From: Streptomyces sp. NBC_00557
GTDB taxonomy: Bacteria; Actinomycetota; Actinomycetes; Streptomycetales; Streptomycetaceae
NCBI RefSeq assembly: GCF_036345995.1
Contig: NZ_CP107796.1
Span: forward strand, 8,370,001 to 8,434,000
Direction: 5' to 3'
DNA: 64,000 bases
The position numbers and the translations under genes were made by a program. The notes beneath the pieces were generated by a model that saw only the letters and a program-made list of their open reading frames with translations, had not been told where the DNA came from and made no database searches. This document shows, piece after piece, positions 12,807-29,605 of this stretch (position 1 is the stretch's first letter; each line of letters begins with the position of its first letter).

Positions 12807-13325
12807 TCAGACCAGCTCGATGGCGCCGTTGGCCTGCGCTTCGGGCAGCGCCCTGTAGCAGTACGCGGCCCGGGCGGCCGAGACGAGCGGTGCGCCGAGC
12901 GAGCGGGACAGCAGGGCGCAGTGGCAGGCCGCCAGAACCTCGGCGCCGGTGATCCGGTGGTCGGCGCAGCGGGCGAAGAGCTGGCCGGCCGAGACCAGTT
13001 CGGCGTGGTTCAGATCGGCGATCTCCACGCTGTCGAGTCCATGGAACCTGCCGGCTGGGGAACTGGTGCCGGGCCGGTGCTCCTGGTCGCAGTTCTCGTC
13101 CCAGCAGGTGTGCATGCCGCAGGCGACGGTGAAGGCCACCGCCGGGGTGACGAGCCGCAGCGCCCCCTGTCGTACCGACTCGCGCAGGCGTGCTGCCCTG
13201 GGCGTGTGGGCCGTTGAGATGCGGTACAGCGCGAAGGGGTCGGCCACGGCGGTGCCGCCGCTGTGGAGCAGGGGGTCGTGGACGGCCGCGGTGGCGTCCT
13301 GCGGACGGGGTGTTCCGGTTTTCAA
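12807..13325 (-). CDS. unknown protein, last gene of the biosynthetic operon
   Basis: 172 residues; I do not recognise a family with confidence. The middle holds a His/Cys-rich stretch (CGMHTCWDENCDQEH). The C-terminal half (LNHAELVSAGQLFARC to LLSRSLGAPLVSAARAAYCY) has the rhythm of a PIN-like domain, but the acidic catalytic residues are not obvious. The start is probably TTG 13325, with GGAAGG upstream; an internal GTG is possible. It follows the B12 radical SAM gene after 64 bp on the same strand. Confidence 0.6.
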   Translation of the reverse strand: MKTGTPRPQDATAAVHDPLLHSGGTAVADPFALYRISTAHTPRAARLRESVRQGALRLVTPAVAFTVACGMHTCWDENCDQEHRPGTSSPAGRFHGLDSVEIADLNHAELVSAGQLFARCADHRITGAEVLAACHCALLSRSLGAPLVSAARAAYCYRALPEAQANGAIELV

Positions 13326-13389
13326 GGGGCCTTCCCGTGGGCTTGGGCGTGTTGGGCAAGAGAGGGACGCGCGGCGGGGGTGTGCCGCG

Positions 13390-15315
13390 TCAGCCCGGGT
13401 TCGCGATGAGCTGCGGGCTGTCCTGCGGCGCGCCGACGCTGCGTCCGACGAAGTGGGCCGTCTCCTCGTGGTTGGTGGAGCGGACGAGGTCGGCGAAGCC
13501 GTGCTTGAACAGCAGGCGCCGGCGGTGCTCGCCGGGCAGCTGGGCGTCGAGGGTCTGCCGCGCGCGGGCGGAGCGGCACAGTGCGGGCACGTCGAGCCGG
13601 TAGGTGCGGTCGACAGCCCAGTGGGTCTCGCGGTCCACTGTGATCAGGCGGGCGTCGGGCAGGCCGCGGCGCTCGGGGTCGGGCAACGGGCGGGTGTCGA
13701 GGTCGTAGCGGATCACCTCGTGCAGGACCCAGCGCCACTGCAGGGGCGCGGTGGGCTCGACGACGGTGTGCCACCACTGCTCGACGAGGGCGGCGAATTC
13801 GCTCGTGGAGAAGCAGTACTCCAGGGCGGGGGCCAGGGAGTCGGGGTCGGCGGTGGAGTTGCCGGCCGCCGTACGCAGCAGGTCGGCACCGGGGTGGTCG
13901 TACTGCCCCTCGATGAAGTCGGCGAGGGAGCGGATGACGGTCGACTGGCTCCAGCCGAGCACGGAGTCGAACACGGGCCACACGTTTCGCAGCACGAGAT
14001 TCTCCGCGAGCAGCCGGGCCCAGAACAGGAACCGCTGCATCTGGAGGTTCTGCTCCAGGGAGATGCCGCGGGCGGCCAGGACGTACTCGAAGTCGTCGTG
14101 CCGGCCCCGCACAGTGACGAATCCGTGCACCTCGCGGCGCTCGGAGAAGTCGGTGTTGGGCAGGAGCAGCAGCGGATAGGCGGCGATGCGGGAGACGTGT
14201 TTGGCGAGTGCGTCGTAGCCGCGCAGGAAGGATTCGGGGGTGTCGCCGGGGACACCCCAGATGAGTTCGGCGTAGCAGTCGAGGCCTTCGTCGGCGAGCC
14301 ATTCCGCGAGTTCCTGCCACTGGTTGATCTTCATGTTGCGCCGGTTCATCTGCTCCAGCACGTCGCCGTCGAGGCTCTGCAGCGCGAGGGTGAAGGAGCT
14401 GCGCAGGCCCTCCTGTCGCATCCGGCGGACGATGTCGCGGAAGACCTTGGACTTGTTCTTCGCCCAGGAGGTCTCCAGGGCTCTGGGGTAGCCGTACCGG
14501 GCGCGGACGTCGATGAAGTCCTCGACGAAGTCTGCGTCCTGCCGGAGCAGGCCGAAGTTGGCGTCACACAGGACGACGGTGTCGGCCTTGGCCCTGGCGA
14601 GCGCTTCCAGTTCGGCGCGCAGCCGTGCGCGGGAGAAGGAGCGGACCTTCTGGCCCACTGCGCCGCCCCAGTAGCAGAACGAGCAGTGGTAGGGGCAGCC
14701 GCGGTTGGTCTCCATCAGGGCGACGTCGTAGCGGAACGCGCCGTCGTCGTCGAGCAGCGGGATGGCGCCGGTCAGGATCGGTGACGGTATCCGGTCCAGG
14801 TCGTCGAGGCGGGGCTGCTCCTCGGTGGTGACGACGGTGCCGTCCTCGCCGCGGAAGGAGATGCCGCGCACCGCTGCGAACGGAGTGCCGTCCAGGACGG
14901 CCGTGAGCAGAGCGGAGAAGGTGATCTCGCCCTCGCCGTTGACGACGACGTCGACGGCGGTGTCGCGGGGCAGCACCCGCTCGGCCTGATGGGCCACGTG
15001 GTTGCCGCCGAAGACGACGACGGCTTCGGGGTTGACCTGCTTGACGGTTTCGGCGACGGCCGCGAACTGGCGGGCGTTCCAGCCGAGGACGGAGAAGCCG
15101 ATCACGTCGGGGACCCCGTCCTGGAGGACTTCGATGGCCATCTCCAGAGGGGTCAGGTTGCCGCGGAAGTTGAGGATGCGGACCTCGCAGCGCTCGGCGA
15201 GGTCGGGGTCGGCCCGCACGACGGCGGCGAGGTAGCCGGCAGCGAGCGGCATCGACTCCTTGGCCATGTGCCAGACGCCCTGCTGGACGAGGGTGACCTT
15301 GAGTGCCTTATCCAT
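13390..15315 (-). CDS. B12-binding radical SAM enzyme
   Basis: About 641 residues. The N-terminal 150 residues form a cobalamin-binding-type domain (KVTLVQQGVW, DVIGFSVLGW, VVVFGGNHVA). The radical SAM core has the cluster motif CPYHCSFC near residue 209, followed by the SAM-binding barrel. A long C-terminal extension of about 250 residues completes it. B12-radical SAM enzymes often methylate unactivated carbons or phosphorus, or rearrange rings. Its place behind two NRPS genes suggests tailoring of an amino acid or the carrier-bound peptide. The ATG at 15315 is used; GTG 15321 is also possible. Confidence 0.88.
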   Translation of the reverse strand: MDKALKVTLVQQGVWHMAKESMPLAAGYLAAVVRADPDLAERCEVRILNFRGNLTPLEMAIEVLQDGVPDVIGFSVLGWNARQFAAVAETVKQVNPEAVVVFGGNHVAHQAERVLPRDTAVDVVVNGEGEITFSALLTAVLDGTPFAAVRGISFRGEDGTVVTTEEQPRLDDLDRIPSPILTGAIPLLDDDGAFRYDVALMETNRGCPYHCSFCYWGGAVGQKVRSFSRARLRAELEALARAKADTVVLCDANFGLLRQDADFVEDFIDVRARYGYPRALETSWAKNKSKVFRDIVRRMRQEGLRSSFTLALQSLDGDVLEQMNRRNMKINQWQELAEWLADEGLDCYAELIWGVPGDTPESFLRGYDALAKHVSRIAAYPLLLLPNTDFSERREVHGFVTVRGRHDDFEYVLAARGISLEQNLQMQRFLFWARLLAENLVLRNVWPVFDSVLGWSQSTVIRSLADFIEGQYDHPGADLLRTAAGNSTADPDSLAPALEYCFSTSEFAALVEQWWHTVVEPTAPLQWRWVLHEVIRYDLDTRPLPDPERRGLPDARLITVDRETHWAVDRTYRLDVPALCRSARARQTLDAQLPGEHRRRLLFKHGFADLVRSTNHEETAHFVGRSVGAPQDSPQLIANPG

Positions 15316-15391
15316 GAGCACGCAACGTTTCGTAACGTCCCGATCCGGTCGGGAGGGGGGCGGACGTGGGGGGTTGAGGGGTGGCCGCGCG

Positions 15392-18300
15392 CTAGGAGGC
15401 GAGGTCGGGGATGCCGGGGCCGATCATGCGGACCTCCTCCGTGGTGCTGCTGCGCTGCGCGAGCCAGGTGCGGACGGGATCGGCGTTGGCGACCGCGTGG
15501 GTGCCGGACAGGAGGTCCAGGTGACCGCCGCTGGCGGGCTGGACGCCCACCTCTCCGGCGCACAGCGGACGCCACCCGTTGATCCAGGCGGGATCGCCGT
15601 CGCCGGCGGTCAGCAACAGCAGGTCGCAGCGGAGCGTGCCGCGCAGGGGCGCCTCGGCGTACCAGCGCGCGTAGCGGGCGACGGTGTCGGCGACGCGGTC
15701 CTTGCCGGTCTGGTGGACGTGCGCCGCCAGCCGCGGGTCCCCGAGGACTTCCTTGACCATCTGCGCCACGTCCTCGTCGGTGGCCGGGGTGCGATCCGAC
15801 GGGGGCGCCGAGTCGAGCAGGACCACGCCGTCGACGGCTTCGCCGCGGTCCTGCAGGGCCAGGGCGGTGGCGGCGGCCAGGACGCCCCCCGCGGAGTAGC
15901 CGACGAGGAAGCGGGGACCGCGGGCGCAGGTGGCGGTGATCAGGTCGGCGGCGGTGGCGGCCGGGTCGGCCGTGGCGGGGAAGTCGAAGCCGTAGGTGCG
16001 AAAGCCGAGGTGCTGGGCGAAGCCGGCCACCGTCCAGGCGTAGCCCGAGATGGGCGGGAAGCAGTAGACGGCCGCGCCGTTGCCGTCCGCCAGCAGCTTC
16101 AGCGGGCTGTCGGCCGCGGGCCGCTGGTCGATGAGCCGGGCCAGGGCGGCTGCCGTCTGGGCGCGGTAGACGTCGATGATGGACACGTCGCGGCGCAGGA
16201 CCTCGCGGACGCGGATGGCCAGCAGCGCGGCACCGAGGCTGTGGCCGCCCGCGACGAAGAAGTTCTCGTCGAGGGAGACGGTGTCGTCGGCCAGCACCTC
16301 GCGCCACAGCGGCAGCAGCGCGCGCTCGGTGTCGGTGCGCGGTGGGCGGGCGGCTGCCCTGCGGACCTGTTCGGGTGCGGGCAGGGCGTTGCGGTCGATC
16401 TTGCCGTTGGGGGTGCGGGGCCAGCCGTCCATGACGACGACGTCGGCGGGCACGGCCGCGGCGGGCAGGAACCTGCCGAGGGCGGCACGCAGGCTGAGGG
16501 TGTCGGGCTGCTCGCCGGGCTCGGGGATGACATAGCCGCACAGCCGCAGCTCGTCGGTGCCGGGTACGGGGCGGACGACGGCGGCGGCCTCGCGCACGCC
16601 GGGCAGCGCGCGCAGGCGCTGCTCGACCTCGCCGAGTTCGATGCGCTGGCCCAGGAGCTTCACCTGGGTGTCGGCCCGGCCGACGACGACGAGGTCGCCG
16701 TTGGGCAGGCGGCGGGCCAGGTCTCCGGTGCGGTAGAGGCGTTCGCCGGGCAGGGAGGGGGAGGCGGTGGTGAACTTCTCCGCGGTCAGGGCGGGATCGC
16801 CGAGGTAGCCCTTGGCCAGTCCGGCGCCGGCCAGGCACAGTTCGCCGACGACACCGGCCGGTTGTTCGGTCAGCCGGCTGTCGAGGACGTAGGCGCGGAC
16901 GTTGGGGATGGGCCGGCCGATGGGCACCGGTGAGGGGCCGCCGCCGGCCGACGACGGATCGATGAGGGTGGCGCAGGCGATGTCGGTGGCCTCGGTGGGT
17001 CCGTAGATGTTGAGCAGGGCGGCCCGGCAGGCACCCGACTCCAGCCAGGGCCGCAACCGGATCAGGTCGGGGGTCTCGCCGCCGAGTGCGAGGTGGCGCA
17101 GCGAGTGCAGGGCGCGGAAGCCGTCGGCGGCGGCGAGGTCGAGCAGCGGATAGACCGCGGAGGGGACACCGGGGTTGAGGACGGTGATCTCCTCGCGGGC
17201 GATGAGGTCCAGCAGGATCCGGGGGTCGTAGGCGGCGTCGGGGGCGAGGACGACGCGGGCGCCGGAGATCAGGGGCGCCAGGTAGTTCTTCACGGAGGCG
17301 TCGAAGCCGCAGGTGATGACCTGGAGCACGCGCGAGTCGGGGCCCATGGCGCAGGCCTGCCGGTACCACCACAGCAGGTTGACCAGGGAGCGCATGCCGA
17401 CCTCGACGCTCTTGGGGACGCCGGTGGAGCCGGAGGTCTGGATGACGTACGCGGTGGCGTCGGGGTGGTGCCGGTCGCCGGCCGGGGTGGCGGGCCGGCT
17501 GTCGAGGGCACGCCGGTCGTACTGGCGTTTGCTTGAGGTGGGGGCGGCGGTGCGTGGTGCCGTTTGGTCGACGTGCAGCAGGACGTCGTAGGCGTAGGTG
17601 GTCAGTTCCTCGTCGTGGAAGGCCATCGGCGTGACCTCGACGCGGGCGAGTTCGGGGAAGTGCCGGGGCAGGTCCTCGAAGAAGGCGGCCGGGATGAACA
17701 GGGCGTCGGCGGCGGACAGCGGGCGGCCGCCGTGCTCGGGCCGGTGCCGGGCGGCCACGGTGGCGAGGAATTCCTCGCGGCGTGCGGCGTCCCAGACATG
17801 CCCGAGATAGACGGCACCGCGGTCGCCGACCCGGCCGATGGCCTCGCCGAGCACGGTGCGCAGGTAGTTCAGGCCGCCGAAGCTCTGTACGACGCTGTTG
17901 AAGACGACGACGTCGAAGGGGCCGGCGGAGTCGGTGGGCAGTTCGTCGAGGTTGAGGGCGCCCAGCTCATGCAGGGAGACGTTGTCCAAGCCGAGCTCCC
18001 GCCGGGCGCGGTGGGCCCAGCGCAGCACGCCGGCCGAGGGGTCGATGCCGACGTACCGGCCCACGCGGGGGGCGAGTTCCTTGAGCGTGGTGCCGGTGCC
18101 GCAGCCGATCTCCAGCAGGGTGGCGTCCGCGGACAGGTAGGCGGAGATGTTGTCGGCGGTGGCGCGCACATACCGGTCGAGGGTCGCGTCGCTGATGCGG
18201 TCGCCGGTGTAGGGGCTGCGCCAGCCGTTGGCGGAGACGGGGTCGTCGGAGTTGTCGGCGACATAGTTCCACAGCTCCAGGCTCATCCGCGGGCCGGCGG

Positions 18301-18811
18301 GCTCCAGTTCGGCCAGGACGTCCAGGGAGTCGAGGCACAGGCCGCTGATGGTGGCGGGGCTGTTCCAGAACACGTTGTTGAAGGACGCGGTCAGGGAGCG
18401 TTCGGAAATCAGCACGCGGGGCGTGGTGTCCTGGACGAGGGCGTGCAGCCGGGCGTCGGGCAGTTCGGGATTGAGCGGGACGTAGGCGCCGCCGGCCTTG
18501 AGCACGGCGAGCAGGGCGACGACCAGCCGGTAGGAGCGGCGCAGCAGGACGGCGACGTGGACGCCGGGGCCGACGCCGTGATCGGCGAGGAATCCGGCGA
18601 GGCGGTCGACGTCGGCGGCCAGTTCGGCGTAGGTGCGGCGGGTGGCGCCGTCGACGACGGCCACCGCGTCGGGGGTGGCAGTGGCCTGCTCGGTGAACAG
18701 GTCGCCGACCGTGCGGTCGTGGGGGAAGGGGCGGGCGGTGGCGTTCGCGTCGCGGGCGGCGACGGCGGCCTCGTCGTCGCCCTCCCACAGGGCGGCGTCG
18801 GACAGTTTCAC
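15392..18811 (-). CDS. NRPS module: adenylation interrupted by methyltransferase, carrier, thioesterase
   Basis: 1,139 residues. The adenylation domain begins normally (A1/A2 region near 85-140, LAVLKAGGAYVPL). A SAM methyltransferase is then embedded at about 175-415 (LLEIGCGTGTTLKEL). Adenylation resumes with A3 (YVIQTSGSTGVPKS near 455) and A5 (NIYGPTEATD). A carrier domain (FFVAGGHSLG, Ser near 858) and a type I thioesterase (FLVGYSAGGV, Ser near 973; GGHLDLLSG near the end) follow. There is no condensation domain. The GTG start overlaps the upstream NRPS stop (GTGA). Its order marks it as the terminal, product-releasing module. A methyltransferase between A2 and A3 is the rarer insertion type, associated with side-chain O/S-methylation. 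Confidence 0.92.
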   Translation of the reverse strand: MKLSDAALWEGDDEAAVAARDANATARPFPHDRTVGDLFTEQATATPDAVAVVDGATRRTYAELAADVDRLAGFLADHGVGPGVHVAVLLRRSYRLVVALLAVLKAGGAYVPLNPELPDARLHALVQDTTPRVLISERSLTASFNNVFWNSPATISGLCLDSLDVLAELEPAGPRMSLELWNYVADNSDDPVSANGWRSPYTGDRISDATLDRYVRATADNISAYLSADATLLEIGCGTGTTLKELAPRVGRYVGIDPSAGVLRWAHRARRELGLDNVSLHELGALNLDELPTDSAGPFDVVVFNSVVQSFGGLNYLRTVLGEAIGRVGDRGAVYLGHVWDAARREEFLATVAARHRPEHGGRPLSAADALFIPAAFFEDLPRHFPELARVEVTPMAFHDEELTTYAYDVLLHVDQTAPRTAAPTSSKRQYDRRALDSRPATPAGDRHHPDATAYVIQTSGSTGVPKSVEVGMRSLVNLLWWYRQACAMGPDSRVLQVITCGFDASVKNYLAPLISGARVVLAPDAAYDPRILLDLIAREEITVLNPGVPSAVYPLLDLAAADGFRALHSLRHLALGGETPDLIRLRPWLESGACRAALLNIYGPTEATDIACATLIDPSSAGGGPSPVPIGRPIPNVRAYVLDSRLTEQPAGVVGELCLAGAGLAKGYLGDPALTAEKFTTASPSLPGERLYRTGDLARRLPNGDLVVVGRADTQVKLLGQRIELGEVEQRLRALPGVREAAAVVRPVPGTDELRLCGYVIPEPGEQPDTLSLRAALGRFLPAAAVPADVVVMDGWPRTPNGKIDRNALPAPEQVRRAAARPPRTDTERALLPLWREVLADDTVSLDENFFVAGGHSLGAALLAIRVREVLRRDVSIIDVYRAQTAAALARLIDQRPAADSPLKLLADGNGAAVYCFPPISGYAWTVAGFAQHLGFRTYGFDFPATADPAATAADLITATCARGPRFLVGYSAGGVLAAATALALQDRGEAVDGVVLLDSAPPSDRTPATDEDVAQMVKEVLGDPRLAAHVHQTGKDRVADTVARYARWYAEAPLRGTLRCDLLLLTAGDGDPAWINGWRPLCAGEVGVQPASGGHLDLLSGTHAVANADPVRTWLAQRSSTTEEVRMIGPGIPDLAS

Positions 18812-21800
18812 GCGGGGACCTCCATCGTGACGGCTCGGGCCAGCCGCTCCAGTGCGGCCAGGTAGCGGTCGACCGTGGCGGGCCGGAACAGCCGGCCGTC
18901 GTACTCGAATGCGACCCGGAACTCGTCGGCGGTGTCGTAGACGTACAGCGTCAGGTCGAACTTGGCGGTGTCCAGGGGGACGTCGACCAGCCGCGACTGG
19001 TCGAGGAACAGTCCGTCGGCCTTGCCGTCGCTGCTGTCGCCGGGCGGTGGGCCGGCCGGCGCGGGGCCGAAGACGTCGGCGAAGTTCTGGTAGGCGAACA
19101 TGACGTTGGCCAGCGGCTGGGTGCCCGCCGTGCGCCGGGGGTTGAGGTCCTTGACGACCACGTCGATGGGGCAGTCCTGCTGTTCCAGCGCGGCGGTGAG
19201 GGCCGCGGACGCCTGGTCGGCGAATGCGTCGAAGTCCATGTCAGGACGCGGGAAGAGACGGATGGGCAGCACGTTGACGAAGAAGCCGACGAGGTGTTCC
19301 AGGTCGGGGTGAATCCGGGCGGCGCTGCCCATGCCGATGCAGATGTCCTGCAGCGACGTCAGCCGGTGCAGCAGCCAGCCGAACAGGGCGAGGAAAACGG
19401 CGGCGGGGGTGCGCTCGGAGCGGGCGGCGAGTGCGCGCAGCCGGGCGGACAGCTCCTTGTCCAGGACGCCGGCGCGGGTGCCGCCCCGGAAGGCCTCGTC
19501 GGTGTCCAGGTGGCCGTCGGCCGGCAGGGGCAGGTGTGGGGCGACCCCGCCGAGCCGCGCGCGCCAGGCCGGGGCCCGGGCGGCGATGTCGCGGGACCGG
19601 TCCCACACGGCGAAGTCGCGGTAGCGCACCGGGAGTTCGGGCAGCTCGGCGGGCTGTCCGCGGCGGGCCGCCCGATAGGCCTCGTTCAGCTCGCGGGAGA
19701 GCACGACGATGGACCAGCCGTCGCAGACGATGTGGTGCGCGGTGAGCACGAGCCAGCACCGCCGCGGTGCCAGCCGGACGACGACGACGCGGGCGAGGGG
19801 CGCCGCGGCGAGGTCGAACGGCGTGGCCGCCTCCGCTCTGACGATCTCCTCGGCGGCCTGGACGGGATCGGGGGCGTCGCTGACGTCGACGGTGCGCAGC
19901 GGAAGGGCGATGCGGTCGTGCACGATCTGGCGGGGCTCGCCGTCGCGCACGGTGAAGCAGGTACGCAGGCTGTCGTGCCGGCCGGCGACCATGGCGAGCG
20001 CCTCCTGAAGCGCCGCACGGTCCAGGTCGCCCTGGTCCATCACTACGGGCACGTTGTACGCGAGGGAGCCGCCGAGCTGGTGGAGGGTCCACAGACGCTG
20101 CTGTGCGTACGACAGCGGGTAGTCCTCGGCATCCTGGGCGCGCGGCAGATGGGCCCCGGGTCCGGTGCCGACGCTGGGTGCGAGGTCCGCGAGGGCGCGG
20201 GCCAGGGCACGGGGCGTGGGGTGGTCGTGGACGGTGCGCAGGGGCACGGTGACGCCCCAGCGGGCGGCGATGCGGTTGGTCAGCCGCATGGCCTTCAGGC
20301 TGTGCCCGCCCACGGCGAAGAAGTCCTCATCGGGGTCGAGGCCGGGGCGGCCGAGGACGGCGCCGAAAAGGGCGGCCAGCTCGGCCTCGTCCACGGCGCC
20401 CGGGGCGGTGCGAGCGTCGGGGTCGCAGGGCGGGGCTTCTGCGGCGCCGGCCGCCGCGCGGGCCTGCTCGGCGAGGGCGGCGCGGTCGACCTTGCCGTTG
20501 GGGGTGTGCGGCAGCGCGGTGCGGCGCAGGAAACGGGACGGCACCATCCACGGCGGCAGGTGGGAGCGGGCGTGGCGGCGCAGGGCCTCCTCGTCCACGC
20601 CGCCGGCGGCCGTGTAGAAGGCGACGAGGTCGCGGTCGCCGAATCCGTCGGGCACCGCTACGACGGCGGCCTCGGTGACGCCCGGGCAGGAGACCAGCAC
20701 GTTGCCGATCTCCCCCGGCTCCACGCGGTGACCGCGCACCTTCACCTGGTCGTCGACGCGGCCCAGGAACTCCAGCTGCCCGGTCTCCGACAGGCGGCCC
20801 AGATCGCCGGTGCGGTACAGCCGGGGGCCGGCCGGGCCGTCGGTGACGAACCGGGCCCCGCCCTCCTGCTCGGGGTGGAGGTAGCCACGGGCCAGGCCGG
20901 TGCCGCCGATGCAGATCTCGCCGGACCGGCCCGGCGGCAGGACGCGCAGCTGGTCGTCCCTGACGTCGACGGCGACGCCCGGCAGCGGAGTCCCGAGGCC
21001 GAGCGTGGTGCCGTCCAAGGGGGTGTCGCGGTCGACGCGCAGGCAGGTGGCGTCGACGGTGGTCTCGGTGGGCCCGTACATGCTCCACACGGTCAGCGAA
21101 CCGCCGGCGGGCCCGTCCAGCAGCCGCCGTACCACGGCGCTGGGCACGGCCTGGCCGCCGGTGACGATGTGCCGCAGGGCCGAGGGGGCGCCACGGCCGA
21201 GGCCGGCGTCGACGAGAGCCGCCAGAAAGGGGGCGACGACGTTGATCAGACCCACGCGGTGGCGGCGGACGAGCTCCAGGAAGCGGTGCGGATCGCGCCG
21301 GTCGTGCTCGTCGAGGACGACCAGCGTTCCGCCGTTGACGAGGCAGGACAGGGTCTGCTGCAGGGCGGCGTCGAAGACGAAGGGCGCCGACAGGGCCTCG
21401 ACGGTGCGCCCGCCCAGGGGCGCGTACAACAGGGGCTGCAGGCCGGTGACGAGCCCGGCCAGGCTGCCGTGCTCGATCAGGACGCCCTTGGGGGTGCCGG
21501 TGGAGCCGGACGTGTACAGCAGCGCGGCGAGGTCGCCGGGCCCGGGGTCGGGCTCGACGCCGGGGCCCGGGAGGTCGGGCTGGTCCGGGGCGAGCACGGT
21601 CGGCTCGCCCGCCCCGCCGTCGCCGAGCCCGGGGACCGCGCGGCGCCCTGCCTCGTCGGCGACGACGAGACGGCAGCCGCTGTCGGCGAGCAGGAGCCGG
21701 AGGCGTTCGGGCGGGTACTCAGTGGTCAGCGGCAGGAAAGCGGCCCCGGCCGACAGCACGCCGAGCAGGCTGGAGACCGTCCACTCCGAGCGTGCGGTGA

Positions 21801-22041: not shown

Positions 22042-23606
22042 GCGGTCTTCCGGGTGACGAACGTGTCCTTCACGACGTAGCCGTCCAGGCCGTGCTGCTC
22101 GCCGTAGGCGATGAGGTCGCTGGTGCGGTTGATGAAGCCGCGGCCGGAGAAGTTGAGGGAGGTGTTGCACAGCACGCTGTAGCCGGTCAGCTCGCCGAAC
22201 GCGGTGAGCAGCCGCGCGATCCGGGGGTTCTGCTCGGGCGTGACGGTCTGCACGCGGGCGCTGCCGTCGACGTGCGTGACCGCCTGGAGCGCATCGGTGC
22301 GCACGTCGCTGAAGTAGAGCATGTGCGGGTCGGGCACCCCGCCGGAGAACCAGCGGTGGGCCTCGCTCTCCAGGCAGATCGGCGCGATGGGACGGTAGCT
22401 CTCACGCTGCTTGACGGCGTTGAGCCTCGTGTGGGTCCCCTTGCTGAAGGGCGCGGCGAGGATGGACCGGTTGCCCAGGGCGCGCGGGCCCATCTCGTAG
22501 CGGCCCTGGGCCCAGCCGATGATGTTGCCCTGCTCCAGGAACCGGGCGACCTCGGCGTAGTCGAGGGGACGGAGGTCGTAGCGAGCCGGGTCGAAGGCGG
22601 CGTCCTCGACGAACTCCTCTCCCGCGTACACGTCCCAGCTGACGCGGGCGGACCCGGTGTAGTGCAGCTGGGCGTCGATGGCGGTGCCGAGGGCGGAGCC
22701 ACTGTCGTTGGGGCACGGCGGCACGAAGACATGGGAGAACAGCCCGCAGTCGGCCCAGCGCCGGTTCCATTCGCAGTTCAGTCCGCACCCGCCGGAAATG
22801 AGCAGCGGCAGCCCCTCGGTCAAATGCTCGGCGGCGTAGTCGTGGAAGCGGGCGAAGATGGCATCGGACAGCTTCGCCGCAAGGTTCTTGTACTCCTGCG
22901 TCTGCACGCCGATGTTGTGGTACGGGGACCAGGCCACCTCGCTCTTGGGCAGGTTGAGCAGGATGCCCTCCTGGTCCAGGAGGTACTCGATGAGTTTCTT
23001 CTCCTCCGGCAGCACGGCGCCGCGTTCGGCGAACCCGGTCAGCGCCATCTGCTTGCCGGCGTCCTGGAAGCGGAAGTGCCCGGGCAGGTCGGGGAACTTG
23101 GGGTCGGCGAGTGCGAAGAGGTAGGCGTACTTGTTGCCCGGATCCGTCAGGACGTGCTTGAGGTGGGTGACGTGCCCGGACTCGTCGATGCGGTAGAAGG
23201 AGCCGATGTTGCCCTCCCACACCAGGCAGTAGCAGGGCCCGCCGTCCTGCCAGGGATCCAGGCCGTAGGCGGTCATGATGTGGGAGCGCTCGTGCGTGGA
23301 GGAGAAGATACGTGTCGGCCGCCCGAGGAAGGTGCCGGGCTCGTCGGACACCGAGCCGGGCCCGACACCGAAGTAGCCCGTGCGCGAGGGCGGTTCGACG
23401 GAGTGCCAGCCCTTGACCCAGCCGCCGACGGCCACCGCGTCCGGGTGGCGGTCCAGCCGCTCGGCGGCGCGCAGCAGCAGGTCGGCGGTGAGCCGGTCGT
23501 AGCGGGGATAGGAGTCCTTCTCGGCCTCCAGCGAGAACAGCAGCTCGCCGTCCTCCAGCGCGACGACCGCGCCGTCATGACCTTCCTTGAACGACAGGAT
23601 CAACAT
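22038..23606 (-). CDS. carbamoyltransferase (NodU/CmcH/TobZ family)
   Basis: 522 residues. The N-terminal Kae1/ASKHA domain begins LILSFKEGHDGAV and contains the metal-ligand region STHERSHIM. The C-terminal YrdC-like half contains GRYEMGPRALGNRSILA and later SVLCNTSLNFSGRGF. These enzymes make carbamoyl-adenylate from carbamoyl phosphate and ATP and transfer the carbamoyl group, normally to a hydroxyl of a natural product. Here it predicts a carbamate on the peptide or a precursor. The ATG at 23606 follows GAAGGAG. Confidence 0.92.
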   Translation of the reverse strand: MLILSFKEGHDGAVVALEDGELLFSLEAEKDSYPRYDRLTADLLLRAAERLDRHPDAVAVGGWVKGWHSVEPPSRTGYFGVGPGSVSDEPGTFLGRPTRIFSSTHERSHIMTAYGLDPWQDGGPCYCLVWEGNIGSFYRIDESGHVTHLKHVLTDPGNKYAYLFALADPKFPDLPGHFRFQDAGKQMALTGFAERGAVLPEEKKLIEYLLDQEGILLNLPKSEVAWSPYHNIGVQTQEYKNLAAKLSDAIFARFHDYAAEHLTEGLPLLISGGCGLNCEWNRRWADCGLFSHVFVPPCPNDSGSALGTAIDAQLHYTGSARVSWDVYAGEEFVEDAAFDPARYDLRPLDYAEVARFLEQGNIIGWAQGRYEMGPRALGNRSILAAPFSKGTHTRLNAVKQRESYRPIAPICLESEAHRWFSGGVPDPHMLYFSDVRTDALQAVTHVDGSARVQTVTPEQNPRIARLLTAFGELTGYSVLCNTSLNFSGRGFINRTSDLIAYGEQHGLDGYVVKDTFVTRKTA

Positions 23607-23688: not shown

Positions 23689-24939
23689 TCAGGACGTGAT
23701 CCGCAGGGCGGGGCCGCGCCCGGTCAGGTCGGGCAGCCGGTCGCCCTGCCGCTCGGCGGACGCGAACGCACGGTGCGTCTCGCCGTCGCAGTGCAGCCGC
23801 ACCCAGTCCACGTCCTGCAGCGGGCCGATGCGGAACCGGGGCTCGTCGGGACGGCCGAGGTCGCGCGGTTCGACGGGGTCGAGCCGGGTGGCCTCGCCGT
23901 CGACGTACAGGTGCGGCGGAGCGCTGTCCGCTGCCGGGCCGGGGCCGCGGGCCGGCAGCGGTGCGGGCCGCACCTGCAGTTCGTGCGCGTCGCCGACGGC
24001 CAGCAGGCGCTGCGACGCCCAGGCCCGGCGGCCGAGCACCACCAGGACGCGGTAGCCGCGCACGTCGCACAGCTCGCCGGAGCCGAAGCCGCCGACCTGC
24101 GCGGTGCCGGACCCGCAGTCGAGGGCTTCCAGGATGCGCAGCGCCCCGGCGGTGAAGCGCCAGCGGCCGACGGCGCCCGGGCACGGGTCGCCGGTCCAGG
24201 CGGGCCGTCCGGCCGGGCCCGCGGCGTCGGCCCACAGATCGACCTCCGCGACGGAGCCGCGGAATCCGCGGCGCAGGTCGAACTCGCCCAGTCGGCCGGC
24301 GCCGCCCTGGTACTGGCCGACGACGAGCGTGCCACCGGTCGGCAGGCGCACGCCCGCGGCGACATTGCGGCGGGCGACCGGTTCGGTGAGCGCGGGCAGC
24401 GGCGACCCGGCCGCCTCGGCGGTCACGCGCGCCGGGCCGTCGTCCTGGTAGAGCCGGGCCTCGCCGGTGGCGGAGTCCCAGCTGACGGCGATCCGCTGCC
24501 ATTGCGCGTAGTCGAGGAACCGGCCGAAGGACACCTGATGGTCCGCCAGGTCCAGGGTCAGCCCGCCGTCACGCTGCTCGCGCAGCGCCAGCACGGTGCC
24601 CCGGCCGGGTGCCGCGTAGCTGAACAGCGTGGTCTCGGCGTCGCCGCGCAGCGGGCACACGTCCAGCACGAGTGTGAAGGCGCGGGAGGGGAAGGCGGTG
24701 AGATGCTCCGCCATCACCCACTGCCGCGGCTTGCTGGTGCGGAACGGGAGCGCGCCGACCGGGTCCAGCAGCAGCCCGTACCGACCGCGCGCCGACCGGT
24801 GCTCGACGACGGGGACCACCGCGGTGTGCGGGCGCAGCCGTACGGCGGCGGACAGGCCGGCGCCGTCACCGAGCGCGAGGTCGGCCAGTTCGGTCACGTC
24901 CGCTGATGCCCAGGTGAGCGCGCCTGGTGCCGGGCTCAC
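23689..24939 (-). CDS. LamG/concanavalin-like protein of unknown role
   Basis: 416 residues with no signal peptide. The central part has the beta-sandwich pattern of LamG/pentraxin-like domains (FTLVLDVCPLRGDAETTLFS, WQRIAVSWDSATGEARLYQD, FRGSVAEVDLWAD). The C-terminal part is Gly/Pro-rich with a second set of strands. No enzymatic motif is visible. The GTG start overlaps the stop of the YqcI/YcgG gene (GTGA), so the two are translationally coupled. Such lectin-like domains are unusual in NRPS clusters. The product should be cytosolic. Confidence 0.75.
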   Translation of the reverse strand: MSPAPGALTWASADVTELADLALGDGAGLSAAVRLRPHTAVVPVVEHRSARGRYGLLLDPVGALPFRTSKPRQWVMAEHLTAFPSRAFTLVLDVCPLRGDAETTLFSYAAPGRGTVLALREQRDGGLTLDLADHQVSFGRFLDYAQWQRIAVSWDSATGEARLYQDDGPARVTAEAAGSPLPALTEPVARRNVAAGVRLPTGGTLVVGQYQGGAGRLGEFDLRRGFRGSVAEVDLWADAAGPAGRPAWTGDPCPGAVGRWRFTAGALRILEALDCGSGTAQVGGFGSGELCDVRGYRVLVVLGRRAWASQRLLAVGDAHELQVRPAPLPARGPGPAADSAPPHLYVDGEATRLDPVEPRDLGRPDEPRFRIGPLQDVDWVRLHCDGETHRAFASAERQGDRLPDLTGRGPALRITS

Positions 24940-25643
24940 GGGAACACCGCCGGGGTCTCCCACCAGCGCACCTCGGGGTCGCCCGCCCCTAGCGGCCTGA
25001 CGATGCGCCACGCTTCGTAGGGGTTGGAGCTGATGTGCGGGTCGTAGCCGCGGTCGTGGCCGGCGTAGGCGTCGCGGATGCGTTGGCGCACGGCGGGCGG
25101 CAGTACGGTCTCGCCGGGGCGCAGCACCCGGCCGAAGGAGTGCCGGGGCTGGAGCAGGATGTAGGTGGACTGCGAGCCGAAGGCGTAGCGGGAGTGGGCC
25201 GGCGGATAGCACGGCGCGAAGGTGTTGACGAAGATCGGCTCGGCGCCGAAGGAGAAGCACCAGGAGACGGTCTCGATCTCGGCGTCGAGCGGGTGCTCGC
25301 CCGCCGGGTCGTGGTCGCTGAGGTGGCGCAGCACCGCGTGGGTGCTGCGGGCCAGCGACGGCACGTCGGCGCCGAACCGGCGGTCGGCCAGCTCGATGAC
25401 GAAGCCGTCGAGCCGGTCGGTCCGGGCCCGGTCGAGGAAGTCGCACAGCACGGGCAGGGTCGCCGCCAGGTTCTCCTCCGCCGTCAGCGCGGGGTCGTAG
25501 GCGGGCCCTCCCCACAGCCGGGACGACGGGGCGTAGATGCAGTGGGTGCCGTTGCGGATGGGCGCGAAGCGCTCCAGGCAGGGAGCACGGTCGGGGGGTG
25601 GCTGGCTCGTGGCGGCGCCCGTAGGACGCGTCATCGAGGTCAT
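24936..25643 (-). CDS. YqcI/YcgG family protein, possible haem-dependent N-hydroxylase
   Basis: 235 residues. It shows the family pattern CIYAPSSRLWGGPAYDP near the N-terminus. In the core it shows VSWCFSFGAEPIFVNTFAPC, PPAHSRYAFGSQSTYILLQP and DPHISSNPYEAWRIV. Several family members (DcsA in D-cycloserine, GntA in guanitoxin, AglA in argolaphos) are haem enzymes that N-hydroxylate arginine-type guanidines. That suggests a hydroxyguanidine building block here, by inference. The ATG at 25643 follows GAGGAACGACCG. It lies between the deaminase and the LamG-like gene. Confidence 0.8.
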   Translation of the reverse strand: MTSMTRPTGAATSQPPPDRAPCLERFAPIRNGTHCIYAPSSRLWGGPAYDPALTAEENLAATLPVLCDFLDRARTDRLDGFVIELADRRFGADVPSLARSTHAVLRHLSDHDPAGEHPLDAEIETVSWCFSFGAEPIFVNTFAPCYPPAHSRYAFGSQSTYILLQPRHSFGRVLRPGETVLPPAVRQRIRDAYAGHDRGYDPHISSNPYEAWRIVRPLGAGDPEVRWWETPAVFP

Positions 25644-25675
25644 CGGTCGTTCCTCGGTTCGGTGGGACGGGGCGG

Positions 25676-26281
25676 TCAGGCTCGCGCGATCCGCTCGTTC
25701 AGCCGCGTCTCGGTCGCGGCGAAGACGTCCGCAGCGATGCGGCGCAGGACAGGAGCGCAGGCGGAAGGGGCGAAGGTCTGCCCAGGGGTGCGGGCGGCGG
25801 CGAGCCGCCGCCAGTACGGCGGCAGGCCGTCCATGCGGGTGAGCATGCCGCCGTCCGGGTCGGGTGCGAGGTAACGAACCGTACGGACACCGGAGTTGAG
25901 AAGCCGGACGGTGCACATCGGGCAGCACTCCAGCGAGGTGTACATGAGGGTGCCGCGCCCCGCCTCCGGCTCGGGGAACCGGTCCTCGAACGCGTCCAGC
26001 GCCTCTGCCTCCGCGTGGGCCGCAGTGTTCCTGCGCGGCCGCAGCAGCCGGTTGCGGCCCTCGGCGACGATGCGGCCGTTGCGGACGAGGACGGCGCCGA
26101 CGCCGTAGTTGCCCTCGTTCACCGACACCAGCCCCAGGACGCATGCCAGCCAGGCGTACGGGTCCTCGGGGCCGGACAGGCCCTCGGCGCCGGTGAGCCG
26201 CTCGGCCAGGGCCGCCACCTGGTCGTCCGCCGGCCGCAGGTCATCGAGCAGCGTGCGGCCGCGCTTCCATGCTTCGTCCAC
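25676..26281 (-). CDS. cytidine/deoxycytidylate-deaminase-fold protein
   Basis: 201 residues. The zinc site is complete: HAE near 89-91 (AAHAEAEALD) and CPMC near 120-123 (SLECCPMCTVRLL). The Pro usually preceding the first Cys is replaced by Cys. The N-terminal 60 residues are extra relative to small deaminases. The fold hydrolytically deaminates amidine-type C-N bonds in bases or guanidines. In this operon it may act on a small precursor rather than a nucleotide. It sits 9 bp after the oxygenase gene's partner region and 32 bp before the YqcI/YcgG start. Confidence 0.85.
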   Translation of the reverse strand: MDEAWKRGRTLLDDLRPADDQVAALAERLTGAEGLSGPEDPYAWLACVLGLVSVNEGNYGVGAVLVRNGRIVAEGRNRLLRPRRNTAAHAEAEALDAFEDRFPEPEAGRGTLMYTSLECCPMCTVRLLNSGVRTVRYLAPDPDGGMLTRMDGLPPYWRRLAAARTPGQTFAPSACAPVLRRIAADVFAATETRLNERIARA

Positions 26282-26290
26282 GGGATCTCC

Positions 26291-27220
26291 CTAGTCGTTG
26301 GCGCCCACGGCCGCGCGGCGGGCGCGGGCGGCGTTCAGGATGAAGTTGCCGCACCGCTCGCCCGGGGCGCCGTCGTCGTTCATCGGGTGCAGCGTCCGGT
26401 TGAATCCGGGATTGACGAAGGCGGCGACGGAATACCGGTCGCTGTGGCGGGGGACGGGCACCTGGTGCCGCAGCGCCCGGTAGTGTCCGCCGCTCCACCA
26501 GGCGAGCAGGTCTCCGACGAGGACGGTGACCCGGTCGCCGCCGCCGGGGACGTCGGCCCACCGGCCGGCCCACTCCGCCTGGAGGCCGCCGTCATCCTCC
26601 TGCAGCACGATGCCCAGCGCGCCGAAGTCGGTGTGCGGCGCGTGCCCGAACTCCTCGTCGGGGCCGACGTGTTCGGGGTCGACGGCCGGGTAACGGTGCA
26701 GCCGCATCGACGCGTACGGCTCGTCGAGCTGCGCGCGCAGGGCCGCGGCGTCCAGACCGAGGCCGAGGGCGAGCGGCACGCTCACCTTCCGGCACAGCTC
26801 CAGGACCTCGTCGAAGAGCCGCTCGACCACGGGCCGGAAGCCGGGAAGGTCGGGCCACTGGTTGGGGCCGTGCAGCGGGGTGCCGGCGAGCACCAGCGGG
26901 TGGTCGGGTCCCAGGTCGCGTCCCACCTGGAACGCCTCCTTGACGTCGGGCGCGCGCCCGGAGCTGGTCTCCGAGCGGTACGCGGTCCAGCCGCGGTTGT
27001 TGCGGTCGCCGGCCACAGCCCTGCGCCGGTGCTCGGGCAGCGTGAAGAACCGTCTGGCCTGGGTGAACGCCTGGGCGGTGGTGGCCGGGGCGCAGCCGGT
27101 GGCGACGAACCCGCCGACGCGGGCGCAGGCGTCGGCGACTGCCGCCACGAGCGCGGGGTCGGTGGGGTCGGTGTCCAGGGCCGCGCAGTCCACCACCGGA
27201 AGCCCCGTGGAGGCGCTCAC
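26291..27220 (-). CDS. isopenicillin-N-synthase-like Fe(II)/2-oxoglutarate oxygenase
   Basis: 309 residues. The N-terminal DIOX_N part (LPVVDCAALD, NNRGWTAYRSETSSGRAPDV) is followed by the catalytic barrel. Iron ligands are H196-x-D198 (HAPHTDFGALGI) and H252 (YRALRHQV). The oxoglutarate-binding motif is RYS near 262-264. Expected chemistry is hydroxylation, desaturation or ring closure of an amino acid or dipeptide. The GTG start overlaps the upstream radical SAM stop (GTGA), so it is coupled to it. Confidence 0.9.
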   Translation of the reverse strand: MSASTGLPVVDCAALDTDPTDPALVAAVADACARVGGFVATGCAPATTAQAFTQARRFFTLPEHRRRAVAGDRNNRGWTAYRSETSSGRAPDVKEAFQVGRDLGPDHPLVLAGTPLHGPNQWPDLPGFRPVVERLFDEVLELCRKVSVPLALGLGLDAAALRAQLDEPYASMRLHRYPAVDPEHVGPDEEFGHAPHTDFGALGIVLQEDDGGLQAEWAGRWADVPGGGDRVTVLVGDLLAWWSGGHYRALRHQVPVPRHSDRYSVAAFVNPGFNRTLHPMNDDGAPGERCGNFILNAARARRAAVGAND

Positions 27221-28266
27221 TTGCCCTCCAGCGCGAGCGCGGGGCCGTCGGCCTCGGCCAGGGGCAGCAGGTGGTGGCGGGAGCCGACCGAGCCGTCGCC
27301 GTTCATCACGATGCCCTGCTTGATGAGCTGACGGCTGAAGTCCTCCCTGGCCCGGTAGGTCTTGTCCTCGTCCGACAGGCCTTCCGAGGTCAGGCCGAGG
27401 TAGACGGCGATGCCCTGGGCGCGTTTGCGCTCGGCGAGGGCGATGATGTCCGACAGCCGCGGCGGCAGGTAGTCCTGGACCTGCTCGGCGCGGCGGGCCC
27501 ACTGGGTGCCGCGGGCGACGTACATGGGGTTGAGGCGGATGGTCAGCGGGATGCCGCGCGTGGCGCAGTGCTCGTGCAGGTAGTCGATGGAGGCCTCGGC
27601 CTCGGCCCACGCCTCCTCGTCGGTCATCACCGGGTCCGGCTTGAACAGGACGTAGGCGGTCAGCTCACAGCCGGCCCGGCCCACCGTGTCCAGGCCGCGC
27701 AGGAACGTCTCCAGTGGCTCGCGCTTGCCGAGCACCCGCTCGCGCAGGTCCTCGTCGAGGGTCTCGAAACCGGTGAGGATGTCGAGTTGCTTGCCGCTGT
27801 TGTCCGCGATCTCCCGGAGCCGCTCCTCGCGCAGGAACTCCAGGCGGGTCTCCAGCACGATCTTGCGTACGCGGGGGAGTTTGCGGACGGCGGCGGTGAT
27901 CTGGGTGAGCGCCGCGGCGGGGAAGGTGGTCTCGTCGAAGACGGAGCCCTCGTTGGCGATGGTGACGCGCTCCAGGACGCCGAGCGCGTGCTTGTCCTCC
28001 TCCAGGACGTACCGGAACTGGGCGAGGACCTCCTCCTCCGGAATCCACTCGCGCGACGACTTGAACGGCAGAGCGCAGAACTTGCACTGGTAGCGGCAGC
28101 GCTTGGTGTTGAACAGGATCGCCAGATCCTGTTCGCCGAGGAAATTCCGGTGCAGGAAGAAGTGGGGGCGGTCGGCGGCCGGCGCGGACTCGCCCATGGC
28201 CTTGGGCGGGCCGAAGCTGCGGTAGAGCCCGCCGAGGAATTCATCGAGCGCAGGGGACGTGGACAT
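27217..28266 (-). CDS. radical SAM enzyme (Elp3-like core, no SPASM extension)
   Basis: 349 residues. The cluster motif is CRYQCKFC at 57-64 (FNTKRCRYQCKFCALPFKS), followed by the glycine-rich and barrel strands (VLERVTIANEGSVFDE, LDILTGFETLDEDLRERVLG). The C-terminus lacks extra cysteines. The layout resembles the small TIGR01210-type radical SAM group, which has no fixed substrate. The ATG at 28266 follows AAAGGGAGAACC. It is the second gene of the operon, coupled to the oxygenase. Confidence 0.85.
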   Translation of the reverse strand: MSTSPALDEFLGGLYRSFGPPKAMGESAPAADRPHFFLHRNFLGEQDLAILFNTKRCRYQCKFCALPFKSSREWIPEEEVLAQFRYVLEEDKHALGVLERVTIANEGSVFDETTFPAAALTQITAAVRKLPRVRKIVLETRLEFLREERLREIADNSGKQLDILTGFETLDEDLRERVLGKREPLETFLRGLDTVGRAGCELTAYVLFKPDPVMTDEEAWAEAEASIDYLHEHCATRGIPLTIRLNPMYVARGTQWARRAEQVQDYLPPRLSDIIALAERKRAQGIAVYLGLTSEGLSDEDKTYRAREDFSRQLIKQGIVMNGDGSVGSRHHLLPLAEADGPALALEGK

Positions 28267-28339
28267 GGTTCTCCCTTTCTGTGAATACCGGTGCTTTTCG
28301 TTTCCGCGCCGTGCCGCGGAGGGGGGTGCGGCGCGGCCG

Positions 28340-29605
28340 TCAGCCAGACACGAGGACGCGGTCGGCGTCAGGTGCGGGGTCCGCGGGGCACAGAAGGCGG
28401 CGGGGCCAGCTGCGGCTCACGGCCGTGAGCACGGCAAGCGCCACGACCATGCAGCAGGTCAGCACGGCCCACGGCAGCCAGGTGGACAGCGTCAGCAGGA
28501 CGACGAGCAGGGGTGCCGCGGCGTCCGCCACGCCGAAGGAGTACTGCGACACAGCCAGGTAACCGCTGCGGTGCGGCTCGGGCGCCACCGCGGCCACCAG
28601 ACCGTTGCTCACCGGCCCCTGCACCAGGAAGGCGAGGCCGAACAGGCCGGTGACGGCGAAGAGATAGGGAACCACCGAGGCGGTGGCCATGAGAACGGCG
28701 GCGCCCATGGCCGCGGCCCAGACGGCGAGCAGTGCGGCGACGGTCTGGAGCACGCGCACCCGGTTGATGCGGGCGAGCGCGCGGACCGCGGCCGGGCGGC
28801 ACACGGTGAGGAGCGCCGTGGCGCCGCCCGTCAGCGCGCCAGGCAGCCATGCCGGCGCACCCAGGTGGCCGACCACGAAGGCGGGCAGCAGCGTACTGGT
28901 GGCGGGGATGGGCAGCACCAGCAGGGTGTTCGCCGCGGTGAGCCCGAGAAAGGGCCGGTCGGCGAGGACGCGGGCGAGTGCGGTACCGGTGCCCTCGGCG
29001 TTGCCCGGGACGGGCTCGGGGGCGCGGACGAACAGCAGGACGAGCAGCGCGGACAGTGCGAAGGTCAGCCCGTCGCCGCCCACCGCCAGCCGGTACGAGG
29101 ACGGGTCACCGCCGATGAACAAGGCGCCCGACAGCAGGCCCCCCAGGGCGGTGCCGCCGGACTGCATGGTGGCCGCCCAGGCGAAGTACCCGTCCCGGGA
29201 GCCGCTCGGCGCAAGGTCCGCGAGCATGCCGTACACCGACGCGAAGAACACGCGCTGCCCGGTGACGGCGCACAGGACCACGGCGAAGACGGACAGCGGG
29301 CCGCCGGCGCACAGATAGGCGGTCATGGCGACCGCCTGCAGTAACAGGCCGGCGACGACGAGGCGGCGCGGGCCGACCCGCCCGATCCACACGCTCACCA
29401 GCGCCGGTAACGCCAGCGTCAGGCAGGTGGCGATGGTCAGGACCGTGCCGGTCACGGCCTCGGACAGACCGAGGACGCGCATCGGGTAGAGCACGGAAAC
29501 GGGGAGGAAAAGCCCCGTCCCCACGGCGTCGACTCCCATGACCGCGCAAGCTGTGCGCGCCGGTCGTACGGCCGACCGAGGGCGTGCCATTGGGTGGATG
29601 GACAA
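28340..29605 (-). CDS. MFS transporter, probable exporter of the cluster product
   Basis: 421 residues with about 12 hydrophobic helices. A characteristic loop after helix 2 (LVSVWIGRVGPRRLVVAG) matches the MFS signature GxLxDRxGRR loosely. It is the first gene of the leftward operon, 73 bp before the radical SAM gene, and is the only visible export or self-protection candidate. A TTG start at 29605 is proposed because AGGAG lies about six bases upstream; the ATG at 29590 is an alternative. Confidence 0.85.
   Translation of the reverse strand: MSIHPMARPRSAVRPARTACAVMGVDAVGTGLFLPVSVLYPMRVLGLSEAVTGTVLTIATCLTLALPALVSVWIGRVGPRRLVVAGLLLQAVAMTAYLCAGGPLSVFAVVLCAVTGQRVFFASVYGMLADLAPSGSRDGYFAWAATMQSGGTALGGLLSGALFIGGDPSSYRLAVGGDGLTFALSALLVLLFVRAPEPVPGNAEGTGTALARVLADRPFLGLTAANTLLVLPIPATSTLLPAFVVGHLGAPAWLPGALTGGATALLTVCRPAAVRALARINRVRVLQTVAALLAVWAAAMGAAVLMATASVVPYLFAVTGLFGLAFLVQGPVSNGLVAAVAPEPHRSGYLAVSQYSFGVADAAAPLLVVLLTLSTWLPWAVLTCCMVVALAVLTAVSRSWPRRLLCPADPAPDADRVLVSG

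Follow-up and report, generated by a model that had tools for sequence, protein, structure and literature searches.

What does a two-module nonribosomal peptide synthetase (NRPS) make when its genes are set among a carbamoyltransferase, a deaminase, a candidate heme N-oxygenase and two different radical S-adenosylmethionine (SAM) enzymes? This question is raised by a block of ten genes in a 64,000-nucleotide stretch of Streptomyces sp. NBC_00557 (contig NZ_CP107796.1, positions 8,370,001 to 8,434,000), referred to here as the window, which has a GC content of 70.0% and belongs to a genome of 9.02 Mb in two contigs. Our tentative answer, held with somewhat less than even confidence, is that the block makes and exports a small dipeptide which likely begins with an O-carbamoyl hydroxy-amino acid. 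All ten genes are located on the minus strand between 13390 and 29605 with intergenic gaps of -4 to +82 bp, and this agrees with the single operon-like block that an initial annotation had proposed. The start codons used for all the cluster genes are predicted ones and, with these starts, 4-bp overlaps were observed at four of the nine junctions; the spacing makes co-transcription of the ten genes probable. The genes are given below in order from 29605 downward, where core refers to genes found in all of the nine clusters that we compared, the window included.

28340..29605, minus strand: major facilitator superfamily (MFS) exporter, the first gene (Pfam MFS_1, 81 bits), 73 bp from the next gene
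27217..28266, minus strand: rSAM1, a RaSEA-related radical SAM enzyme, core (Pfam Radical_SAM, 41.5 bits; TIGR01210, 101.2 bits)
26291..27220, minus strand: Fe(II)/2-oxoglutarate (2OG) oxygenase resembling isopenicillin N synthase (IPNS), optional (DIOX_N and 2OG-FeII_Oxy above cut-off; 4-bp overlap with rSAM1)
25676..26281, minus strand: zinc deaminase of the cytidine deaminase (CDA) fold, core (PF00383, 50 bits)
24936..25643, minus strand: candidate heme N-oxygenase of the YqcI/YcgG family, optional (PF08892, 42.3 bits against a cut-off of 27)
23689..24939, minus strand: pentraxin/LamG-fold protein (PF00354, Pentaxin, 37.4 bits against a cut-off of 25; 4-bp overlap with the YqcI gene if the GTG at 24939 is used)
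22038..23606, minus strand: NodU/TobZ-type carbamoyltransferase, core (Carbam_trans_N, 69 bits; Carbam_trans_C, 190 bits; HERSH in nine of nine clusters)
18808..22041, minus strand: NRPS module 1, with adenylation, carrier and condensation domains (A-T-C), core (Pfam AMP-binding, PP-binding and Condensation; pocket code DAQNVGMVDK; HHxxxDG and carrier serine intact)
15392..18811, minus strand: NRPS module 2, an adenylation domain with an inserted methyltransferase followed by carrier and thioesterase domains (A(MT)A-T-TE), core (Pfam and alignment to PDB; SAM motif, carrier serine and thioesterase GYSAG intact in nine of nine)
13390..15321, minus strand: KedN5-family cobalamin (B12) radical SAM C-methyltransferase, optional (NF033712, 957 bits against a cut-off of 700)

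The family assignments made earlier for the carbamoyltransferase, the YqcI/YcgG protein, the deaminase, the two radical SAM enzymes and the exporter were all found to hold. The core was observed to recur in eight other genomes from four phyla and the set is therefore more than a chance assembly. A profile scan with rSAM1 over about 85,000 prokaryote species, using one genome per species, gave 12 loci and eight of these hold the same two NRPS genes together with the carbamoyltransferase and the deaminase; six of the eight were extended before reading. The actinobacterial hosts are Saccharopolyspora spinosa, Frankia QA3, Parafrankia colletiae and Actinokineospora auranticolor, while the others are an Acidobacteriaceae metagenome-assembled genome (MAG), the cyanobacterium Waterburya, Azospirillum doebereinerae and Candidatus Paraburkholderia calva. 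The core thus spans Actinomycetota, Acidobacteriota, Cyanobacteriota and Pseudomonadota, and it is formed by rSAM1, the deaminase, the carbamoyltransferase and both NRPS proteins in all nine clusters. In all cases where they were readable, the catalytic motifs of rSAM1, the deaminase, the carbamoyltransferase and the inserted methyltransferase, as well as those of the carrier, condensation and thioesterase domains, were intact. Yinghuangia sp. ASG 101 probably has a tenth cluster, as its proteins match rSAM1, the pentraxin-fold protein and the methyltransferase region and the contig that encodes them has an identical length in each case. Since the core is constant and the other enzymes vary, the core would make the scaffold and the remaining enzymes would decorate it.

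Two modules with thioesterase release had been predicted and this part stands, as the adenylation, carrier, condensation and thioesterase domains are all present with intact catalytic motifs. The A-T-C motifs were read in eight of the nine clusters, as the cyanobacterial gene is split across two fetched loci. The pocket code of the first adenylation domain (A1) is DAQNVGMVDK in six of the nine clusters and differs from it by at most two residues in the remaining clusters, namely DAQNVGMTDK in the cyanobacterium, DVQNVGMVDK in Azospirillum and DVQNVGMIDK in P. calva. The code of the second domain (A2) begins with DAKNAG in the seven sequences that were fully read and with DAK in the eighth (S. 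spinosa, a partial read), the cyanobacterium being left out. Lysine was found at position 239 of A2 in all eight sequences examined, whereas the residues at positions 330-331 depend on where the gaps are placed. When set against reference codes from the literature, A1 is presumably nearest to glutamine (six of nine positions) followed by threonine and glutamate (five of nine), while A2 is close to none, its best match being a glutamate code at four of nine positions. Neither code resembles what we take to be the arginine codes. The use of arginine, serine and methionine as building blocks, as had been suggested, is doubtful because A1 is glutamine-like, A2 carries Lys239 in the eight sequences examined and neither is near those that we take to be for arginine.

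The methyltransferase of module 2 is inserted between the adenylation motifs a2 and a3. The A2 matches comprise a first piece at residues 29-137 and resume at residue 413, with the methyltransferase matching at about residues 228-327. Homologues of this region carry generic names among the best 120 of 307. Methyltransferases at the same position are found in TioN (thiocoraline) and MarQ (maremycin), which PMC11355689 describes as S-methylases, TioN acting on cysteine; in the same paper the O-methylating domain of KtzH sits between a8 and a9. By analogy, the a2-a3 methyltransferase likely methylates the side chain of the second residue. The protein described here differs from TioN and MarQ in being an A(MT)A-T-TE protein of a two-module dipeptide line, and its code differs from that which we take to be the cysteine code.

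The carbamoyltransferase belongs to the NodU/TobZ superfamily as both of its Carbam_trans domains score above the cut-off, and it falls short of the equivalog cut-off for the nodulation protein NodU itself (258 bits against 1000). Its best PDB relatives are NovN-type enzymes, GdmN and TobZ. The two domains and the HxxxH motif are shared with NodU, TobZ, NovN and GdmN, but the cluster enzyme is 522 aa long, matches only the later part of the N-terminal profile and is encoded by a gene that overlaps an NRPS gene. An in-frame A-T-C start overlapping the carbamoyltransferase stop was observed in all nine clusters. The overlap is 4 bp in seven of them, 1 bp in P. calva and either 14 or 41 bp in the cyanobacterium. 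This arrangement suggests that carbamoylation is tied to module 1 and that the two proteins act together at the start of the pathway. A carbamoylated first residue is proposed because O-carbamoyl serine or threonine is shaped like glutamine, the A1 code is glutamine-like and the carbamoyltransferase gene overlaps that of module 1. A residue of this kind has a precedent in O-carbamoyl-homoserine, which is a known nonribosomal peptide residue in the heinamides according to PMC8471579. In the same text the heinamides and laxaphycins, which share an O-carbamoyl hydroxy-amino acid within a nonribosomal peptide, are far larger (masses near 1,400-1,500) and have no carbamoyltransferase that could be assigned to their cluster.

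Several points weigh against the proposal of a carbamoylated first residue in a small dipeptide. Pocket codes predict unusual substrates poorly. The overlapping start is TTG in the acidobacterium, where later starts are possible, and later in-frame A-T-C starts are also present in Azospirillum, P. calva, S. spinosa and Actinokineospora, so that five of the nine clusters have such starts in a list that does not cover the window. The homoserine adenylation domains of the laxaphycin and heinamide systems look specific for homoserine itself, with carbamoylation thought to come later, according to PMC8471579. A YqcI protein implies a guanidine whose source does not appear in the NRPS codes. On the side of the proposal, the distance matrices of the core proteins correlate pairwise at r = 0.956-0.993 (A-T-C without the cyanobacterium) and the pairs involving YqcI or the pentraxin-fold protein at r = 0.854-0.966, but these values are uncontrolled for species history and partly reflect species divergence, so that they show no more than an absence of conflict with joint inheritance. 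The picture is weakest for rSAM1 and the deaminase, whose roles a carbamoyl-dipeptide leaves unexplained.

One alternative, which we regard as unlikely, is that module 1 loads a plain glutamine or threonine-like residue and that the carbamoyltransferase acts on the peptide only after its release. NodU/TobZ-type enzymes decorate sugars or macrolactams, and NovN-type enzymes, GdmN and TobZ are late-acting tailoring enzymes. The A1 code, when compared with the reference codes above, fits glutamine and threonine about equally, and late carbamoylation is also the view taken for laxaphycin-type homoserine in PMC8471579. Against this, the gene overlap with module 1 in all nine clusters suggests, without proving, joint early action.

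A second alternative is an arginine-containing dipeptide in which the guanidine is N-hydroxylated by YqcI and altered by the deaminase and the radical SAM enzymes, with carbamoylation occurring late; we consider this quite unlikely. It draws on the family of the enzyme, since YqcI/YcgG proteins are heme enzymes that hydroxylate guanidine N-H groups and the six characterised members act on arginine derivatives (PMC12866846), ChmN being one such guanidine-hydroxylating member (PMC11177257). The window protein matches PF08892 above cut-off and the cysteine of a T-x-C-x-Y motif is kept in seven of seven homologues, where it is a candidate heme ligand in an alignment that does not contain AglA (axial Cys44). 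A search of YqcI against PDB chains gave no match at E 0.001. The dipeptide is argued against by the two codes, with Lys239 of A2 in all eight sequences, and by Frankia and Parafrankia, whose clusters retain both pocket codes although neither genome has a YqcI match at E 1e-5 (nor has that of Streptomyces milbemycinicus). Because YqcI is absent there despite the same codes, an N-hydroxylated guanidine would be at most an optional decoration. The oxidised guanidine that had been predicted is possible through YqcI but doubtful.

The YqcI and pentraxin genes were found in seven of the nine clusters and are adjacent in all seven, and from this constant adjacency the pentraxin-fold protein may be a partner of YqcI. 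It is probably cytosolic, as no signal peptide was seen by eye. The protein had been called lectin-like; we took this to mean the product of 23689-24939, for which Pfam supports a pentraxin, and a structure model of medium confidence (pLDDT 67) gave pentraxins and laminin G domains as its top PDB fold matches. AglA, GntA, DcsA, ChmN, Mhr24 and AmbT belong to the same Pfam family as the window YqcI protein, with the conserved cysteine as a possible heme ligand in common, but here the enzyme is paired with a pentraxin-fold protein and occurs in an NRPS context, and arginase, SznF and phosphonate families are missing from the ten genes. A graminine/chalkophomycin-type system is not indicated because the ten genes all match families other than SznF, for which no genome-wide search was made. 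A D-cycloserine-type (DcsA) system is likewise not indicated as no arginase family is present among the ten genes; DcsB of that system is arginase-like.

The two remaining core enzymes, rSAM1 and the deaminase, are related to enzymes of nucleobase and tRNA chemistry. The match of rSAM1 to the RaSEA equivalog TIGR01210 spans residues 46-283 and scores 101.2 bits against a cut-off of 212.15, and filing it as RaSEA was therefore rejected. A sequence comparison with the PDB at E 0.001 found a single relative, queuine lyase (6p78), with a weak match of 30 bits, and queuine lyase is absent among the 50 PDB fold matches listed for the rSAM1 structure model (pLDDT 90), which are assorted radical SAM enzymes of other functions. 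The CxxxCxxC motif was found in eight of the nine cluster homologues, with an ambiguous residue at the third cysteine in Parafrankia. The nearest named relative is from Streptomyces sp. LZ34 (90%). Queuine lyase, to judge by its name, acts on a 7-deazaguanine substrate. RaSEA converts tRNA preQ0-lysine to archaeosine (PMC11298593). Both enzymes have a radical SAM core in common with rSAM1, but rSAM1 differs in its score below the RaSEA cut-off, in having no ArcS-like gene among the ten and in its location in NRPS clusters. The deaminase matches PF00383 above cut-off and has the HAE...CxxC zinc site, with HAE...ECCPMC invariant in eight of eight aligned sequences and the zinc pattern present in nine of nine. 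In the PDB it comes closest to deaminases of tRNA adenosine, guanine and other nucleobases, although the likeness is remote, and it scores below the equivalog cut-off for TadA (38.9 bits against 150).

A nucleobase-peptide hybrid, in which rSAM1 and the deaminase act on a nucleobase such as salvaged 7-deazaguanine or guanine, is improbable: the relatives of both enzymes act on such substrates (for queuine lyase, judging by its name), but the conserved core lacks any base-making or base-attaching gene and the RaSEA and queuine lyase matches are below cut-off and weak respectively. For the O-carbamoyl dipeptide, we infer instead that rSAM1 reacts at a C-N bond and that the deaminase hydrolyses an amidine-type C=N.

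Relatives of rSAM1 were also observed in other settings. At the three loci of the scan that remain besides the eight clusters and S. milbemycinicus, an rSAM1 relative was present, but the fetched DNA gave no match to the rest of the window genes. Two Ktedonobacterial MAGs (L020:4739-8637 and L021:7630-11526) have an rSAM1 relative, 53% identical, that is flanked by a ThiF-family protein on one side and a 4HBT-type thioesterase on the other, a layout read by Pfam for the former and by eye for the latter; these loci may represent a second specialised pathway with this radical SAM family. One radical SAM protein (P0119) seems by eye to be fused to a similar C-terminal piece, although Pfam recognised only Radical_SAM. 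In a planctomycete MAG (L019:7861-11002), a different CDA-fold deaminase is located two genes upstream of the rSAM1 relative, with no NRPS match.

The optional enzymes differ from cluster to cluster. The oxygenase was observed in three of the nine (window, S. spinosa and Azospirillum), with an HTD...H iron site and an RxS motif in all three aligned homologues. It had been described as IPNS-like, which is correct for the DIOX_N/2OG-FeII_Oxy fold and the iron triad but not for its closest solved relative: by entry name, the best PDB matches are an ethylene/succinate-forming enzyme (143.8 bits) and a probable iron/ascorbate oxidoreductase (132.0 bits), whereas the best IPNS scores 60.8 bits. The slot after A(MT)A-T-TE also varies in content. 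The window enzyme in this slot has B12-binding and radical SAM domains and scores above the KedN5 subfamily cut-off, and homologues of this type, 77% identical, occupy the same position in S. spinosa and Actinokineospora, which makes the KedN5 type a feature of only three of the nine clusters. Azospirillum has another B12 radical SAM enzyme in the slot, the acidobacterium and the cyanobacterium have a PF13759-type 2OG oxygenase, and Frankia has an unannotated 729-aa protein with no B12 radical SAM match; the Parafrankia and P. calva contigs stop there.

Additional genes flank some of the clusters. A nucleotidyltransferase-like protein was seen by eye beside the cyanobacterial, Azospirillum and P. 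calva clusters, a likeness that falls below the Pfam cut-off in Azospirillum and gives no Pfam match in the cyanobacterium. ATP-grasp-like proteins are present beside the acidobacterial and cyanobacterial clusters. The cyanobacterial region (L015:14391-16361 and L030:14682-15299) encodes a formyltransferase-fold protein, a weak RimK-like ATP-grasp protein and a TIGR02466-type 2OG oxygenase; these extra genes hint that a related product is made there in acylated or extended form. Directly upstream of the rSAM1 gene, pieces of an MFS homologue are present in both Parafrankia and S. milbemycinicus, and no tblastn match to the exporter was listed at the other seven cluster loci. The S. milbemycinicus locus (L018:9400-11008) has only rSAM1 and two non-contiguous exporter pieces, and looks like a remnant that has lost most of the cluster.

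The limits of the block were set from several lines of evidence. Gene boundaries were corrected relative to a mechanical list of open reading frames (ORFs) by means of start codons, the extent of the Pfam matches and a frame plot of GC at third codon positions, and this plot matches the course of the ten genes. On this basis the long IPNS-like ORF (to 27610) was dropped in favour of 26291-27220, the long YqcI ORF (from 26144) was dropped in favour of 24936-25643, and the deaminase was placed at 25676-26281. The proposed extent of 12807..29605 was retained at its right edge, while the left edge was moved to 13390. The minus-strand ORF at 12807-13325 (172 aa) has no Pfam family, no relative at E 1e-5 among 60 other genomes and, by tblastn and gene calls, does not lie behind the same cluster in S. 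spinosa or Actinokineospora. It was rejected as an orphan and is probably outside the cluster. The only promoter-like site found in the promoter and terminator scan is on the plus strand, and so it is not the promoter of this operon. One weak terminator-like site, against 4.2 expected, lies at 30578-30590 of the minus strand and thus upstream of the ten genes. Elsewhere in the genome, the second contig carries 10 of the 13 condensation-domain matches (at positions 0.04-0.32 Mb) and the chromosome the other three; this contig may be a metabolite-rich plasmid.

The block appears to be an uncharacterised two-module cluster. No cluster with this combination had been known to the initial annotation, and in the open-access literature we likewise found none described with this set of carbamoyltransferase, NRPS, radical SAM and deaminase; MIBiG and subscription journals were outside the search and a described relative is possible. 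Literature on leaf nodules and P. calva gave nothing on this cluster among the matches listed, and no listed paper bore the name KedN5. Ambocidin was set aside as unrelated, its literature being mostly on calcium-dependent and similar antibiotics as judged by titles and the starts of abstracts. AMB, saxitoxin, streptothricin, bleomycin and phaseolotoxin/mangotoxin were set aside because their gene or domain sets differ.

The cluster was also found to be rare. A single rSAM1 protein searched at E 1e-30 against 100 relatives matched only the query genome. The rSAM1 profile at E 1e-60 was run on 396 genomes from the phylum of the window, 398 from that of Azospirillum, 339 from that of the cyanobacterium and 347 from that of the acidobacterium, and again matched only the query genome; all these counts, the 100 relatives among them, include the query genome itself. 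Such rarity of rSAM1 in four phyla implies a rare cluster, in keeping with its lack of study.

Taken from gene content, intact motifs, conservation, overlapping genes and pocket codes, the favoured pathway to the O-carbamoyl dipeptide, with its substrates and order of steps, would be as follows. The carbamoyltransferase would carbamoylate the hydroxyl of a serine, threonine or homoserine-type amino acid to give a glutamine isostere, which the A-T-C protein would activate. The A(MT)A-T-TE protein would then activate the second residue and methylate its side chain, the condensation domain would bring in the first residue and the thioesterase would free the dipeptide. One building block would be prepared or remodelled, by rSAM1 probably at a C-N bond and by the deaminase probably at an amidine-type C=N. 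Among the optional enzymes of this cluster, YqcI with its putative pentraxin-fold partner may carry out an N-hydroxylation, the 2OG oxygenase may hydroxylate or desaturate, and the B12 radical SAM enzyme may C-methylate. The MFS protein would then export the product.

A more far-reaching reading, which we consider conceivable and on the whole rather unlikely, is that these clusters define a new small-peptide family in at least four phyla. In such a family, rSAM1 and the deaminase would have been recruited from nucleobase and tRNA chemistry to remodel an amidine or guanidine amino acid, assembly would begin with an O-carbamoyl glutamine mimic and YqcI would work with a pentraxin-fold protein in the cytosol. 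Such a pairing with a heme N-oxygenase would, to our knowledge, be the first for either fold.

The cluster is rare within each of the four phyla and yet its core is common to very different bacteria, namely actinomycetes including Frankia, a cyanobacterium, Azospirillum, a leaf-nodule Paraburkholderia and an acidobacterium, which points to a likely useful product; we take several of the named producers to be plant- or alga-associated. The small five-gene core and the nearly fixed adenylation codes make the substrates directly testable. The cluster is further of interest because a RaSEA-type radical SAM enzyme likely acts in it outside tRNA modification, because it gives a natural reason for loading a carbamoylated amino acid and because its heme N-oxygenase gene has a constant neighbour.

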